Below, one piece after another: positions 6,111-18,501 of a DNA stretch of 19,720 nucleotides. The notes beneath the pieces are model-generated. The model was not told the origin of the DNA. It was given only the letters and a program-made list of their open reading frames with translations, and ran no database searches. Origin of the DNA: Nitrospira sp. Its GTDB lineage: Bacteria > Nitrospirota > Nitrospiria > Nitrospirales > Nitrospiraceae. The DNA lies in NCBI GenBank assembly GCA_024998705.1, contig JACOEF010000151.1:1-19720 (forward strand), written 5' to 3'. Within the stretch, counting starts at the first letter, position 1. The number at the start of each line of letters is the position of its first letter. Made by a program: the position numbers and the translations under genes.

Positions 6111-7523
6111 GTGGCGAAACCCAAAGTATTCATTCTGGAAGATGATCCGTCAATCGCGGCTGCCGTGCGCTCATCGCTCGAGGACGAATTTGAACTGGTC
6201 GCCTCCGAGTGGAATCCGGCGGCGGTGTTACAGATTCACGAACAGATGCCGCTGGTGACTCTCCTGGCCTTGGAATCGTCGTCGAATTCCGTCGCCGAGG
6301 GTTATGTGCGAGTCTTGCAGGAATTGCGGCAGACCGGACATGGCGGAAAAGTGATCGCCTACACGGAGAGCACGGAGCGAAGTCTTGCGGTTCGCGCCAT
6401 TCAGCATGGCGCCTATGACGTGTTGTCCAAGCCGCTGGACATGAGCCTCCTGCGGCAGATTATTCGGCGGGCGGCGCGCGTCGCCGATTTGGAACGAGAT
6501 GGCTTGGGCGTCACGGAAGGGGCAGGTCATGATGAATTCAGCGGCATGCTCGGCACTAGTCCCAGCATCCATCGGATCTTTGATGCGATCCGCAAGGTTT
6601 CGACCAATGATGCGCCTATTTTGATCACCGGTGACAGCGGGACCGGCAAAGAGCTGACGGCGCGCGCGATCCATGGTCGGGGACTACGGCGGCAGGGGCC
6701 GTTTATTCCGATCAATTGCGGAGCGATTCCGGAAAGTCTGTTGGAGTCGGAGCTGTTCGGCTATGAGCGGGGAGCGTTCACGGGAGCCGTGGGGCAGAAG
6801 AAGGGCAAGGTTGAATTCGCTCAGGGAGGAACGCTCTTCCTCGACGAGGTCGGCGAACTGCCCAATGCCCTGCAAGTGAAGCTGCTGCGGTTTCTTCAAG
6901 ATCACACATTTGAACGGGTGGGCGGGCATCAAGCGATCGAAATGAATGTCCGCATCATTGCGGCCACGAACGTGAATCTCAAGGAAGCGATTGAAAAAGG
7001 CACGTTCCGCGAAGATCTCTATTATCGGCTCGGCGTCGTGCACATCAATCTGCCTCCTCTGCGAGAGCGCGGCGAAGATATTGCCTTGATGGCCATGGCC
7101 TTCCTCCGCCAGGCCGCGGCTCACTACAATAAGTCGCTCGAGGGATTCACTCGCGAAGCGCTGGAGGCGATGCGGGCCTATCCCTGGACCGGCAATGTGA
7201 GTGAGTTGTCCAACAGGATCGGGCGCGCGGTCGTCAGGGCGGAGGGAGCACACGTCACTCCGATGGATTTGGATATCGCGCACTCGACGGTGCCCGGAGA
7301 CGACGGTTCGATTTCCTTCAAAGTCAATCAACAGCGGATCGAAACCGATCTGATCATGAAGGCGTTTACCTTGTCGCAAGGGAACTTGAGCCGGGCCGCG
7401 CAGGAACTGGGTATCAGTCGATCGACCTTGTATCGACGGCTGCGCCAATATGGGATGGATCGAACGCTTGATGCGCGGCGCGTGCTCGGGCTATCCCCGC
7501 GAGCGTCGATGACCGAACATTAA
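6111..7523 (+). CDS. NtrC-type sigma54 activator with degenerate receiver domain
   Basis: A 470-aa bacterial enhancer-binding protein that would remodel sigma54-RNA polymerase using ATP. Receiver-like domain 1-125: the acidic pair Asp11/Asp12 and Lys107 (SKPLD) are kept, but the strand-3 segment PLVTLLALES (47-56) has no Asp at the phosphorylation site. AAA+ domain about 145-390: Walker A GDSGTGKE (174-181), sigma54-contact loop GAFTGA (221-226, intact), Walker B FLDEVG (Asp245/Glu246). C-terminal Fis-type HTH about 413-448 (NLSRAAQELGISRSTLYRRL). The receiver's EGYVRVLQEL and AIQHGAYDVLSKPLD segments recall PEP-CTERM-associated PrsR regulators, a weak resemblance. GTG 6111 is chosen because AAAGGAG sits 7 nt upstream; earlier in-frame codons lack family similarity. 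Activity is probably set by protein partners, ligand or expression level rather than by phosphorylation. Confidence 0.93.
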   Translation: MAKPKVFILEDDPSIAAAVRSSLEDEFELVASEWNPAAVLQIHEQMPLVTLLALESSSNSVAEGYVRVLQELRQTGHGGKVIAYTESTERSLAVRAIQHGAYDVLSKPLDMSLLRQIIRRAARVADLERDGLGVTEGAGHDEFSGMLGTSPSIHRIFDAIRKVSTNDAPILITGDSGTGKELTARAIHGRGLRRQGPFIPINCGAIPESLLESELFGYERGAFTGAVGQKKGKVEFAQGGTLFLDEVGELPNALQVKLLRFLQDHTFERVGGHQAIEMNVRIIAATNVNLKEAIEKGTFREDLYYRLGVVHINLPPLRERGEDIALMAMAFLRQAAAHYNKSLEGFTREALEAMRAYPWTGNVSELSNRIGRAVVRAEGAHVTPMDLDIAHSTVPGDDGSISFKVNQQRIETDLIMKAFTLSQGNLSRAAQELGISRSTLYRRLRQYGMDRTLDARRVLGLSPRASMTEH

Positions 7524-14789: not shown

Positions 14790-15397
14790 TCAGGACGTTC
14801 CTCGCCATCGAGGTGCCTCCGGATATACGTACGGTCCTCGCCACCCTTCAACAGACTTTGAAACGACAACTGGAACGAACGTGCGATCGCCATGCGAGGA
14901 TCAGTTGGGTGCGACCGGTCTCGATGCACCTCACCCTCAAATTTCTTGGTGATGCCACGGACGAATCGATTGAACCGCTCCGGGTGGCCGTCGAACAGGC
15001 CGTGTCAGCGCATCAGGCGATTCCTATTCCTCTTGAGCGACTGGGTACGTTCCCGGGCCCGCAGTCACCACGGGTGCTTTGGGTGGGACCATCAGGGAGT
15101 TGGGAGCAGGGCCGGGAGGCGCTGCGGCTTGCGGCGCTCCATCGTGAGGTGGAAGCCTGTTGCCGGGCAGCGAACTTTGCACCGGAAGAGCGGCCATTCA
15201 GTCCACATTTGACTCTTGCGCGGATCAAAGGCGGGGAGCGGGAGGTGGGGCGGGCGTTGGCCCAGAACGGTGTGATGGAGCGACCTCTAGAGATAGGGGC
15301 GCTTCCCGTTGAGGCGGTGGTCCTCATGAGGAGCGACCTGCGCCCCACCGGCTCAGTCTATACGAAACTGTGGCACGTGAGGATCGGGGAGAGGTAA
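14786..15397 (+). CDS. thpR: RNA 2',3'-cyclic phosphodiesterase (ThpR/LigT)
   Basis: A 203-aa 2H-phosphoesterase that opens 2',3'-cyclic phosphate ends of RNA. Both catalytic HxT motifs are present: His48-Leu-Thr50 in HLTLKFLG and His141-Leu-Thr143 in HLTLARIK, about 90 residues apart as usual. The start MIRTFLAIEVP is the standard family N-terminus. Its ATG (14786) overlaps the cinA stop (ATGA), so it is cotranscribed and probably coupled. The C-terminal strand VVLMRSDLRPTGSVYTKLWHV is also typical. No clear terminator follows. Confidence 0.93.
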   Translation: MIRTFLAIEVPPDIRTVLATLQQTLKRQLERTCDRHARISWVRPVSMHLTLKFLGDATDESIEPLRVAVEQAVSAHQAIPIPLERLGTFPGPQSPRVLWVGPSGSWEQGREALRLAALHREVEACCRAANFAPEERPFSPHLTLARIKGGEREVGRALAQNGVMERPLEIGALPVEAVVLMRSDLRPTGSVYTKLWHVRIGER

Positions 15398-15831
15398 GGC
15401 CTGCGCCCTAAAAAGCTTCGAGGCTCGTTCGGGAGGCTCATTAGGATAGTGTCGTCGAAACTGTTGATCGTGAAGCTTGATCTAGAGGCGATGCCGTAGG
15501 CAACGTGCAGGATTTTCACCCTCTGTGTTTGACAGGTGAGACCGACCGACCCTCTCATTCAGCTGTTATTCTCAGTATCCTCATCCCTCAGCGAAAAGTG
15601 GCGACCCCTCACGCGCCTGGTTTTGTCGAGTGTCTTGGTGGGGGCGTCAACGGACGCGATGGTGGCCTGGAGGCACGGCTTCAAACAGGTATTGTCGGCA
15701 GGGACCTTTGACTCGAGGTTTTTCTGATTCTTGCCGCCTGCGTTCTTGTGTCATGTTTCGACAATCCGCGCCGTACGACCCGATCTCCAGGCCGAGAGTG
15801 CAGGCACACACATGGTGCAGGGTGTGAGTTC
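15398..15831. other. Gene-poor region between thpR and the 83-aa gene
   Basis: No gene is supported in these 434 nt. Short open frames on the plus strand (for instance 15536-15727) have no ribosome binding site or recognisable product. Small structures seen are a GCGTC-AACG-GACGC hairpin (15644-15657, no T run) and a GAGGCTC direct repeat near 15421-15440. A TTGACA box at 15529-15534 lacks a partner -10. It may hold an undetected small RNA or decayed coding sequence. Confidence 0.4.
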
Positions 15832-16083
15832 TTACCGGGTGAGGCATTCCTCCGTGACTTCGGTCTTGGTCAGTGCGGCGACCTGTAGGCGGCACATGGC
15901 GGCCACGATGCCTTCATACACGATGGCGGCGGCTGCCGACCAAGCGGGATTAAATGGCTCGCCTTGAAACGCCGCTTCGGCGGCTTTTTTCTGATCGTAC
16001 GTGAGGTCGCGGAGCGCGCGTGCACTACGTTCGTTCGATTCTGCGATGCCTTCGTCTGAATAATGGTCTGCCCGATCTGTCAT
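15832..16083 (-). CDS. Small unrecognised protein (83 aa) behind a sigma54 promoter
   Basis: An 83-aa protein that I do not recognise. The first half is charged and hydrophilic (MTDRADHYSDEGIAESNERS, then RALRDLTYDQKKAAEAAF), the second half contains a helix with small residues (AWSAAAAIVYEGIVAAM) and two Cys residues (64 and 80). The central segment could be a weakly hydrophobic or packing helix; there is no signal peptide. ATG 16083 is strongly supported by AGGAGGA 4-5 nt upstream; a longer in-frame reading to 16185 would run through the promoter. A consensus -24/-12 sigma54 promoter lies about 62 nt upstream of the start, which suggests expression under specific conditions rather than constant expression. 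The gene stands alone in a 1.1-kb gene-poor stretch. Confidence 0.75.
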   Translation of the reverse strand: MTDRADHYSDEGIAESNERSARALRDLTYDQKKAAEAAFQGEPFNPAWSAAAAIVYEGIVAAMCRLQVAALTKTEVTEECLTR

Positions 16084-16099
16084 GGGGTCCTCCTGTGTG

Positions 16100-16118
16100 A
16101 ATCGACTATGAAATCGAC
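16100..16118. repeat. AATCGAC direct repeat in the leader of the 83-aa gene
   Basis: Two copies of AATCGAC (16100-16106 and 16112-16118) are 12 nt apart, between the predicted sigma54 start site and the Shine-Dalgarno. An 8-bp palindrome CGCTAGCG (16129-16136) lies at the predicted transcription start. Either might be a binding site. Confidence 0.35.
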
Positions 16119-16144
16119 ATCCAAGGCCCGCTAGCGAGAAAAAG

Positions 16145-16160
16145 AGCAAGCTTGGTGCCA
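16145..16160 (-). promoter_or_regulatory. Sigma54 (-24/-12) promoter of the 83-aa gene
   Basis: On the minus strand the sequence TGGCACCAAGCTTGCT matches the sigma54 consensus TGGCAC-N5-TTGC(A/T) in every defined position, with the invariant GG and GC separated by 10 nt. The predicted start is near 16135, giving a leader of about 52 nt before ATG 16083, with a strong ribosome binding site. The activator encoded at 6111-7523 has an intact GAFTGA loop and is a candidate regulator, but no link is shown. Confidence 0.7.
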
Positions 16161-16446
16161 GGTCACACTCCTTGATTTGATGCACGAACGCATGTGGGTC
16201 AATGTCGTCAGGTCAGCGGCACGATGGAGGCTGCTGCTTTATCTCCAGCACATTTTCATATACTTAAGGATGGCGGGCCGCCTCCCATTCGCGACGGCAG
16301 GGTGAGAGCGGCAGTTGGGACGATTGGCGGTCCTGTGGCGGATATGACAGACCTCTGCCCGTTTGACACTCGTGAGTTCCCGTGGCGACATCGGTTCTCC
16401 AGCTGAGGGGGTGAGTGTGCCGCAGAGGGGAGCCCTATCATCAGGC
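16161..16446. other. Non-coding region upstream of the sigma54 promoter and uvrB
   Basis: No gene is supported here. Open frames on both strands lack ribosome binding sites and recognisable products. This is where activator sites for the sigma54 promoter would be expected (about 80-200 nt upstream, 16215-16340), but no convincing repeated or palindromic site was found; a weak ATGC-N6-GCAT repeat (16180-16193) is too close to the promoter. Confidence 0.4.
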
Positions 16447-16491
16447 ATGGTTGAGTGTTAACTTGGTGATGCATGAACCATCTAGCAAGTT
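16447..16491. repeat. Interleaved inverted repeats in front of uvrB
   Basis: ATGGTT (16447-16452) pairs with AACCAT (16476-16481), and AACTTG (16460-16465) pairs with CAAGTT (16486-16491). The pairs interleave and end 12 nt before the uvrB ATG. They may be operator sites. No E. coli-type CTGT-N8-ACAG LexA box is present. Confidence 0.35.
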
Positions 16492-16503
16492 GATCGATTA
16501 GGT

Positions 16504-18501
16504 ATGCCTCCGTTTAAACTCGAAGCGCCATTCCAGCCCTGTGGAGACCAGGGGCAAGCCATTGAGAAGTTGACGTCCGGAGTCCTGGCCGGGAAGCAAC
16601 ATCAGGCGTTGCTCGGCGTCACCGGTTCCGGCAAGACGTTCACCATGGCGAATGTTGTCGAGCAGGTGCAGAAGCCGACGCTCGTGCTCGTGCACAATAA
16701 GACCCTGGCCGGCCAGCTCTATCAGGAATTTAAGCAGTTCTTTCCGCATAATGCCGTCGAGTATTTCATCAGCTATTACGATTATTACCAGCCGGAAGCC
16801 TATATCCCGCAGAGCGATACCTATATTGCCAAGGATGCCTCGATTAACGATGCGATCGACCAGATGCGCCACGCCGCGACGACGTCGTTGTTGCAACGCA
16901 ATGACGTGCTGATCGTGTCGTCGGTTTCCTGCATCTACGGCCTCGGATCGCCGGAGGTGTACCACGACATGTTGGTGTACTTGGAAGAGGGGATGGAGAC
17001 GCGGCGTGAAAAGATACTCGCGAAGCTGGTGGACATTCAGTATGCGCGGAATGATGTGGATTTTCACCGCGGCACGTTTCGCGCGCGCGGCGATGTCATC
17101 GAAATTTTTCCGGCCTCGTCGGAAGCGAAATCGGTGCGGATTGAATTGTTCGGCGATGTGGTGGACGCCATCCATGAGATCGACCCATTGACCGGGAAGT
17201 CGTTGGGCGAGTTGCCGAAGATTGCCATCTATCCGAATACGCACTATCTCATTGCACCGGACCGGTACGAACGAGCGATTACGGGAATTGAGGAAGAGTT
17301 GGATCTCCGAGTCGCGGCATTCAAGAAGAACGGTCAGTTGCTGGAAGCGCAACGGATCGAGCAGCGCACCAAGTTCGATCTCGAAATGATTCGTGCCATG
17401 GGCTACTGCCACGGGATCGAGAACTATTCGCGCCATTTGAGTGGGCGCGCGCCGGGCGATCCGCCCCCGACGCTGTTGGATTATTTTCCGAAGGATTTTC
17501 TGCTGATCATCGACGAGTCGCACGCGACGGTGCCGCAGGTCGGCGGCATGTACGAAGGCGACTTTTCGCACAAACGGACGCTGGTGGATTACGGATTCCG
17601 GCTGCCATCCGCTGTCGATAATCGCCCGCTGAGGTTTGCTGAATTCGAGCGGATGCTGAAGCAAGTGATCTACGTGTCGGCGACACCCGGTCCCTATGAG
17701 CTGGAGCACGCCAAAGGCGAAGTCATCGAGCAGATCATCCGCCCGACCGGGCTGATGGATCCCCTTATTGATGTGCGGTCGGCGAAGGGGCAGGTCGACA
17801 ATCTGCTGGCCGAGGTGCGGACGGAGGCGGCGAAGGGAAATCGTGTGTTGGTGACCACCTTGACCAAGCGCATGGCCGAAGACCTCACTGAGTATTATCA
17901 CGACCTGGGCGTGAAGGTGCGGTATCTGCACTCGGACATCAAGACGCTGGAGCGGGCGGAAATCATCCGCGACCTCCGGCGTGGCGTATTTGATGTGCTG
18001 GTCGGGATCAATTTGCTGCGAGAAGGGCTCGATCTCCCGGAGGTGAGTTTGGTGGCGATTCTGGACGCGGACAAGGAAGGGTATCTCCGCTCCCATCGGT
18101 CGTTGATTCAAACGGCGGGCCGCGCAGCGCGAAATCTGGACGGGCGCGTGATTTTTTATGGGGATACGGTTACAGATTCTATGCGGCGCGCCATGGACGA
18201 AACGGCGCGTCGACGTCATATCCAGGAAGCCTATAATGCGGCCCATGGCATTACGCCCGAGAGTATCAAGAAGCAGATTCCCGTACTGGACTATGCAACC
18301 AGTAGCGGGAATGAGGGGCAGCTTGAACTGGCGGCGGAGTCGGCGGGCGAGTATGCAACGACAGGCAACGCGGAGCAGGTGATTCGCCGGCTTGAGGTTG
18401 AGATGACGGCGGCAGCCAAGAAATTGGAGTTCGAGCGGGCGGCCGAATTACGGAATCGGATCAGAGCGTTGAAATTGAAGGCGTTGGAGTTGGCGGAGTA
18501 G
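16504..18501 (+). CDS. uvrB: Excinuclease ABC subunit B
   Basis: UvrB, 665 aa, the damage-verifying helicase-like subunit of UvrABC nucleotide excision repair. It receives DNA from UvrA and recruits UvrC. Visible motifs: Walker A GVTGSGKT (38-45), the beta-hairpin [12 protein letters not shown] (from 91) that inserts between DNA strands, Walker B/motif II DESHAT (337-342), motif [11 protein letters not shown] (536-544), and the C-terminal UVR motif for UvrC contact (about 625-660, [21 protein letters not shown]). The length is normal. ATG 16504 matches the family N-terminus, although only AGG lies just before it. Interleaved inverted repeats precede it. It is convergent with the DUF4321-like gene. 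Confidence 0.97.

Follow-up and report, generated by a model that had tools for sequence, protein, structure and literature searches.

The window analysed here, a stretch of 19,720 nucleotides of Nitrospira sp. DNA, poses the question of whether a short sequence resembling a sigma-54 promoter is a promoter in fact, and if so which gene it serves and which activator opens it. The box in question, TGGCACCAAGCTTGCT on the minus strand at 16145-16160, is the sole exact match in the window to TGGCACN5TTGCW. Its GG-N10-GC spacing is intact, and the TGGCAC-N5-TTGC context is present around the GG and GC pairs (10 nt between them), confirming the -24/-12 match proposed in the original prediction. The box precedes a start codon (ATG at 16083-16081) equipped with the ribosome binding site AGGAGGA at 16088-16094, minus strand, again as predicted, with 61 nt between box and ATG. 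The gene that follows occupies 15832-16083 on the minus strand, comprising an open reading frame of 83 codons (15835-16083) and its stop codon (15832-15834). With thpR ending at 15397 and uvrB starting at 16504, it does indeed stand alone in a gene-poor gap of 1.1 kb. On the plus strand, inside the gene and antisense to it, a GC-rich stem followed by a T run is found at 15970-15984, perhaps the thpR terminator or a consequence of codon conservation at KKAAEAAF.

A single consensus match is by itself weak evidence for a sigma-54 promoter. When up to three mismatches to the box consensus are allowed, the window contains 76 matches versus 77.3 expected from shuffles, and the exact consensus occurs six times in the same genome versus three times for the reversed-pattern control. 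Apart from the box at 16145-16160 and one further locus (L002, described below), three of the four remaining exact matches lie inside mechanically called open reading frames of at least 131 aa. The genome contains one match to rpoN (PF04552, 189.3 bits), a gene that has already been cloned from Nitrospira (PMC8553950). What makes the evidence for the box strong is its conservation in comparison with other genomes and not the consensus match itself.

Relatives of the 83-aa protein are present in 160 of the 175 family genomes searched. The genus group comprises 29 genomes, the source genome included, and has Candidatus Nitrospira defluvii among its members; the box TGGCA[CT][CT]AA[GC]NTTGCT stands before the 83-aa orthologue in 27 of these. 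Of the 28 genus genomes with an orthologue or its sister copy, 27 thus keep the GG and GC pairs, whose loss upstream of orthologues had been named in advance as evidence against the promoter. Genus member G020 has a sister copy with no box, and G018, a genome that is 66% complete, gave paralogue-like matches only and no close 83-aa orthologue. Two other genera contribute three boxes, two in G011 (L033 and L055) and one in G131 (L053), for 30 box-bearing copies overall; the L033 copy may be contamination, because its upstream region is identical to that of L034 (G026) over the compared stretch. The copy in G006 is preceded by a 9-of-11 site, TGGTATGAACCTTGCT, so that absence of the box there is a matter of degree, and L052 (G165) has no box.

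Counts for the box and for the regions upstream of it refer to a set of 29 box-bearing loci (L006, L025-L051 and L053); loci L009-L024, which come from another collection with largely the same genomes, were excluded from these counts and used for synteny and protein alignment. Over 180164 positions in the 29 loci, read on both strands, 29 sites score at least 10 of 11, to be set against 29 boxes, and in every case (29 of 29) the site is the box itself. Across the family the pattern TGGCAYYAAGNTTGCT is found in 43 of 175 genomes, the reversed control giving one match, and it stands ahead of other genes in addition to the 83-aa gene. Because the box is conserved before orthologues across the genus, TGGCACCAAGCTTGCT is with high probability a genuine sigma-54 promoter.

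Boxes before other genes were observed as follows. In seven genomes a box of the same type (TGGCACYAAGCTTGCT) lies 77-79 nt before the ATG of a CBS-domain protein of ~145 aa (L084, L085, L088, L092, L094, L096 and L002 of the source genome, the Pfam assignment being that of L084 only). The L002 box is a 16-mer identical to TGGCACCAAGCTTGCT, and it precedes a protein judged by eye to be a relative of the L084 CBS-domain protein. Eight genomes have a TGGCATTAAGNTTGCT box with a gene for a Tle1-like hydrolase (L083, L086, L087, L089, L091, L093, L095 and L077; PF09994 was found in L083, the sole one scanned). The exact palindrome GGATACGAATCCGTATCC occurs in four of these eight upstream regions and variants of it in the remaining four, making it a likely candidate for the site of another activator. 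Finally, at L090 of the source genome (G000:C798:8883-8898) a TGGCATTAAGCTTGCT box is located 52 nt before an open reading frame of 251 aa whose start looks by eye like a signal peptide.

Upstream of the box at the 83-aa gene two further blocks are conserved. The more distant consists of two GTCA half-sites on the minus strand, a distal copy at 16364-16367 and a proximal copy at 16345-16348, spaced 19 nt apart in the window. Among the 29 loci, 26 have GTCA units 18-23 nt apart, the pair starting 198-234 nt before the box. When the 28 longer upstream regions were shuffled 1000 times, the pair was recovered in a mean of 0.33 and a maximum of 4 loci, counts that overstate significance because the regions are related sequences; the next best 4-mer reaches 10 loci versus 26 for GTCA. 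The pair is missing from L029, whose upstream region is 40 nt only, and from L050 and L053, which lack the second block also; L055, outside the 29-locus count, has no GTCA pair, and L040 has an additional one at -256. The second block, TTAAGTATATGAAAAT at 16252-16267 on the minus strand, is A-rich and recurs in the form GTAASTRTWTGAAAAW with 0-4 mismatches in 26 of 29 loci, 106-109 nt before the start of the box. Comparison by eye with the IHF consensus suggests that this middle block is possibly an IHF-like bend site.

Both upstream blocks are kept despite differing neighbours. In a comparison of 16 named relatives and the window, with gene names checked by Pfam or NCBIfam for the window and L011, ten have cinA and thpR to one side of the 83-aa gene, eight have recA-recX-alaS to the other, and the N. 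defluvii lineage has different genes there. In the window uvrB (16504-18501) occupies the place of the recA-recX-alaS group of those eight relatives. A compound pattern of GTCA, GTCA and box, fitted to the known set of loci, gives 26 matches, 24 of them at the 83-aa gene, in 24 of the 29 genus genomes, and none with the reversed control. The two remaining matches (L159 and L176) are inside mechanically called reading frames and look like chance. The combination of GTCA pair and box therefore marks essentially one gene.

This arrangement bears on whether the box might be conserved as the site of some other DNA-binding protein, the gene being driven by an ordinary promoter. Conserved spacer letters are not a requirement of sigma-54 alone, and the spacer of the box (YAAG) is conserved here along with the rest. 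However, the letters that are invariant include the GG and GC pairs at the correct spacing, the UAS-like blocks lie at enhancer distance from the box, and a consensus scan of 15380-16510 finds one weak sigma-70-like site, located after the gene. We regard an ordinary promoter beneath another protein's site as very unlikely. To our knowledge the GTCA direct repeats match no known activator site; their position and conservation are consistent with the sigma-54 reading, and the pair is probably an enhancer, a candidate activator site at least 100 nt ahead of the box. Sigma-54 promoters have such upstream activating sequences at 100 bp or more (PMC4641369). The layout seen here, a -24/-12 box separated from a distant candidate activator site by DNA long enough to bend, matches what a sigma-54 promoter needs. 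Promoters served by NtrC-type activators have in common with this one the consensus box, the distant tandem sites and a putative IHF site between them; they differ in that here the target gene and the activator are uncharacterised.

The original prediction offered the NtrC-type activator encoded at 6111-7523 on the plus strand as candidate regulator, in which case the promoter would be the same and the signal would enter through the receiver domain of that protein. The protein is of response-regulator type with Sigma54_activat and HTH_8 domains, and resembles PrsR. All 29 genus genomes contain a match of at least 41% identity to its receiver domain, its helix-turn-helix is almost unchanged among orthologues, and in 16 of the 29 genomes, the window's included, the orthologue lies ~8-9 kb from the 83-aa gene. 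G020, which has no box, also has no GAFTGA motif in its activator copy. The ~8-9 kb spacing, however, seems to reflect a conserved order of blocks and not adjacency: in the other 13 genomes the orthologue is far off or on another contig, with the promoter equally conserved in most, and in G017 and G039 orthologue and 83-aa gene share a contig but stand far from each other.

The GAFTGA loop is needed for contact with sigma-54. It is gone in the orthologues of G036 (RGSAGG), G037 (HGSAGG), G020 and G011 and altered in those of G021, G022, G025 and G031, the G025 copy having an in-frame stop as well as GALTDA. Nevertheless G036, G037, G021, G022 and G025 all keep the box and the GTCA pair, and G036 and G037 retain the middle block too. 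With the loop missing from several orthologues, the activator family appears as if it were decaying, and G131 has a box with no orthologue of the 6111-7523 protein. In the receiver domain of the window's own copy, Ala is found (LLALES) where most orthologues carry the phospho-acceptor Asp (LLDLxS).

The likeness to PrsR can be examined on its own. The PEP-CTERM regulatory boxes associated with PrsK/PrsR, as described in PMC1569441, resemble the present case in being single-gene units with long intergenic regions and a sigma-54 box. Their motif 1 ends in TTTACA, ~63 nt upstream, and the remainder of the motif is given in a figure of that paper; the hexamer was the part used for comparison. TTTACA is found in none of the 29 upstream regions up to 300 nt (one of which is 40 nt), the 6111-7523 protein scores 471.6 bits against TIGR02915, below the cut-off of 502.6, and the 83-aa product, which terminates in EECLTR, has no PEP-CTERM signal visible by eye. 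The reading of the protein as PrsR was rejected on the score of 471.6 versus 502.6 bits and the count of 0 of 29. Because the orthologues of G036 and G037 have lost GAFTGA although the whole promoter is kept, and because the PrsR hexamer is absent, the 6111-7523 protein is disfavoured and appears unlikely to be the regulator. The original prediction is supported as regards a sigma-54 promoter ahead of a gene for an 83-aa protein that carries no other annotation, and is not supported as regards the activator proposed with it.

The sigma-54 promoter would then answer to another activator of the genome. Five genomes examined have 30-37 matches to PF00158 each, weak ones included; PF00158 also matched all 14 control genomes, which indicates that the weak matches are not all activators. 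As the set to be compared we took 26 PF00158 proteins of G037 (29 loci from 31 matches), and set against them 24 such proteins from the 31 matches in G017 and 27 from the 33 matches in G020; for G000, 12 loci of 30 matches were covered. All 19 of the G037 proteins with a reciprocal best hit in G017 have one in G020 as well. The phylogenetic profile over G037, G017 and G020 singled out no candidate, and none is named here because all 19 are present in a genome that lacks the box.

The protein behind the promoter belongs to a family that we did not find described. No family was assigned to it by NCBIfam, Pfam, PHROGs, PADLOC, plasmid and PDB sequence searches; the sole Pfam row, DUF7691, scores 13.2 bits versus a cut-off of 27. 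Among viral contigs 47 stretches fitted the pattern and none was confirmed, no signal peptide is visible by eye, and no literature on the gene was found among the titles and abstracts of the matches listed. A pattern scan of 84,980 species, one genome each, returned 16 close relatives, 15 of them filed as Nitrospira or Nitrospiraceae and one as Nitrosospira that is apparently G040:C64 of the genus. A profile of 18 sequences matches 131 of 395 genomes of the phylum, 130 of them within the order and one outside it at E 6.7e-4. The distribution suggests that this small helical module belongs to the order Nitrospirales and constitutes an undescribed family.

Over residues 27-59 the alignment of 17 sequences has 26 of 33 positions invariant, as are E79 and C80. 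The AlphaFold model has block mean pLDDT values of 95-96 over residues 31-60 and is poor at both ends (overall pLDDT 72.3, pTM 0.52), and predicts that the conserved core is a pair of helices. None of the 25 Foldseek matches in the PDB reached an E-value of 0.001; the best has E 1.7, and the matches are not interpretable. The strict conservation of residues also bears on the possibility that the gene works through a small RNA, its reading frame being incidental. The shortness of the gene and its long intergenic leader would suit a small RNA, but synonymous differences are visible among the genes (e.g., L044 versus L045) and a Shine-Dalgarno-like site stands ahead of the ATG in all 29 loci examined. 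No Rfam match was found in the window. We give this explanation hardly any credence and take the product to be the protein, which most likely binds other proteins as an adaptor or regulator and is not an enzyme.

The history of the module is consistent with a protein product of this kind. Other genera carry the module at the N-terminus of proteins of ~230 aa with a DUF6573-like C-terminal part; among three such fusion proteins scanned, two were over the Pfam cut-off and one below. These Nitrospirales proteins with C-terminal DUF6573 (PF20213) have an N-terminal module of ~40 aa in common with the 83-aa protein, whereas the latter has no PF20213 row in the Pfam scan and ends in an EEC tail of its own. 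No mention of DUF6573 was found in the literature searched. Within the genus, DUF6573 was detected in one of 28 genomes searched, as a separate frame of 146 aa, and gave no match in 27, an absence that is not certain because the model is weak on Nitrospirales fusions.

Five genus genomes have, in addition, a shorter paralogue of 66 aa that adjoins a carboxyltransferase gene, with a PolyA_pol/CBS/DHH gene also nearby where the stretch reaches that far; the fusion genes of other genera (L103, L105, L107 and L136) have a DnaJ or PolyA_pol neighbour in common (Pfam calls for these neighbours are those of L142, L105 and L107). No box was found before the five short paralogue loci (best 8 of 11). 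A midpoint-rooted FastTree phylogeny of 50 module sequences and 62 columns, from which L134 and L136 were excluded, places all 30 box-bearing copies in one group, next to the copies of G020 and G006, their nearest relatives. Support for the group of 30 is not above 0.8, and is 0.85 for 29 of them and 0.96 for 27, so that the box-bearing copies may be taken as one group with modest support. In the simplest history the module would have been duplicated, DUF6573 lost in the genus, and a sigma-54 promoter acquired by one of the copies, in an order that is inferred.

Taken together, we consider it likely that the 83-aa gene is a single-gene unit with a helical module as its product, controlled as an all-or-none sigma-54 switch by a predicted NtrC-type activator. 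Sigma-54 RNA polymerase would bind the box at 16145-16160 and wait. An NtrC-type activator would bind the two GTCA half-sites, which lie in tandem at 16345-16367 with about two turns of the helix between them, a step to which their conservation points, and a protein of the IHF/HU type might bend the DNA at 16252-16267 and bring activator and polymerase together, a weaker suggestion. Transcription would start near 16134, some 12 nt past the GC pair, and yield one mRNA for the small protein with its predicted helix-pair core. From the tree, the gene would derive from duplication of a module that elsewhere in the order forms the N-terminus of DUF6573 proteins, with the promoter gained by the duplicate; and size, model and fusion history suggest that its product is a conditional protein-binding adaptor or regulator, not an enzyme.

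The promoter is thus an ordinary kind of switch, and the protein family behind it is undescribed. Gene regulation is poorly understood in Nitrospira, nitrite-oxidising bacteria that are hard to grow and manipulate. More tentatively, and at odds that we would put well short of even, the locus may be a genus-wide circuit with essentially one target, in which an activator at the tandem GTCA sites turns on a helical adaptor confined to Nitrospirales, itself a duplicate of the module encoded beside a PolyA_pol/DHH/CBS protein, and so lets these nitrifiers adjust some housekeeping process when a single, defined condition arises. Strict conservation of a promoter before one small gene suggests that the condition is important to the whole genus, and the promoter would provide a concrete reporter for finding it.
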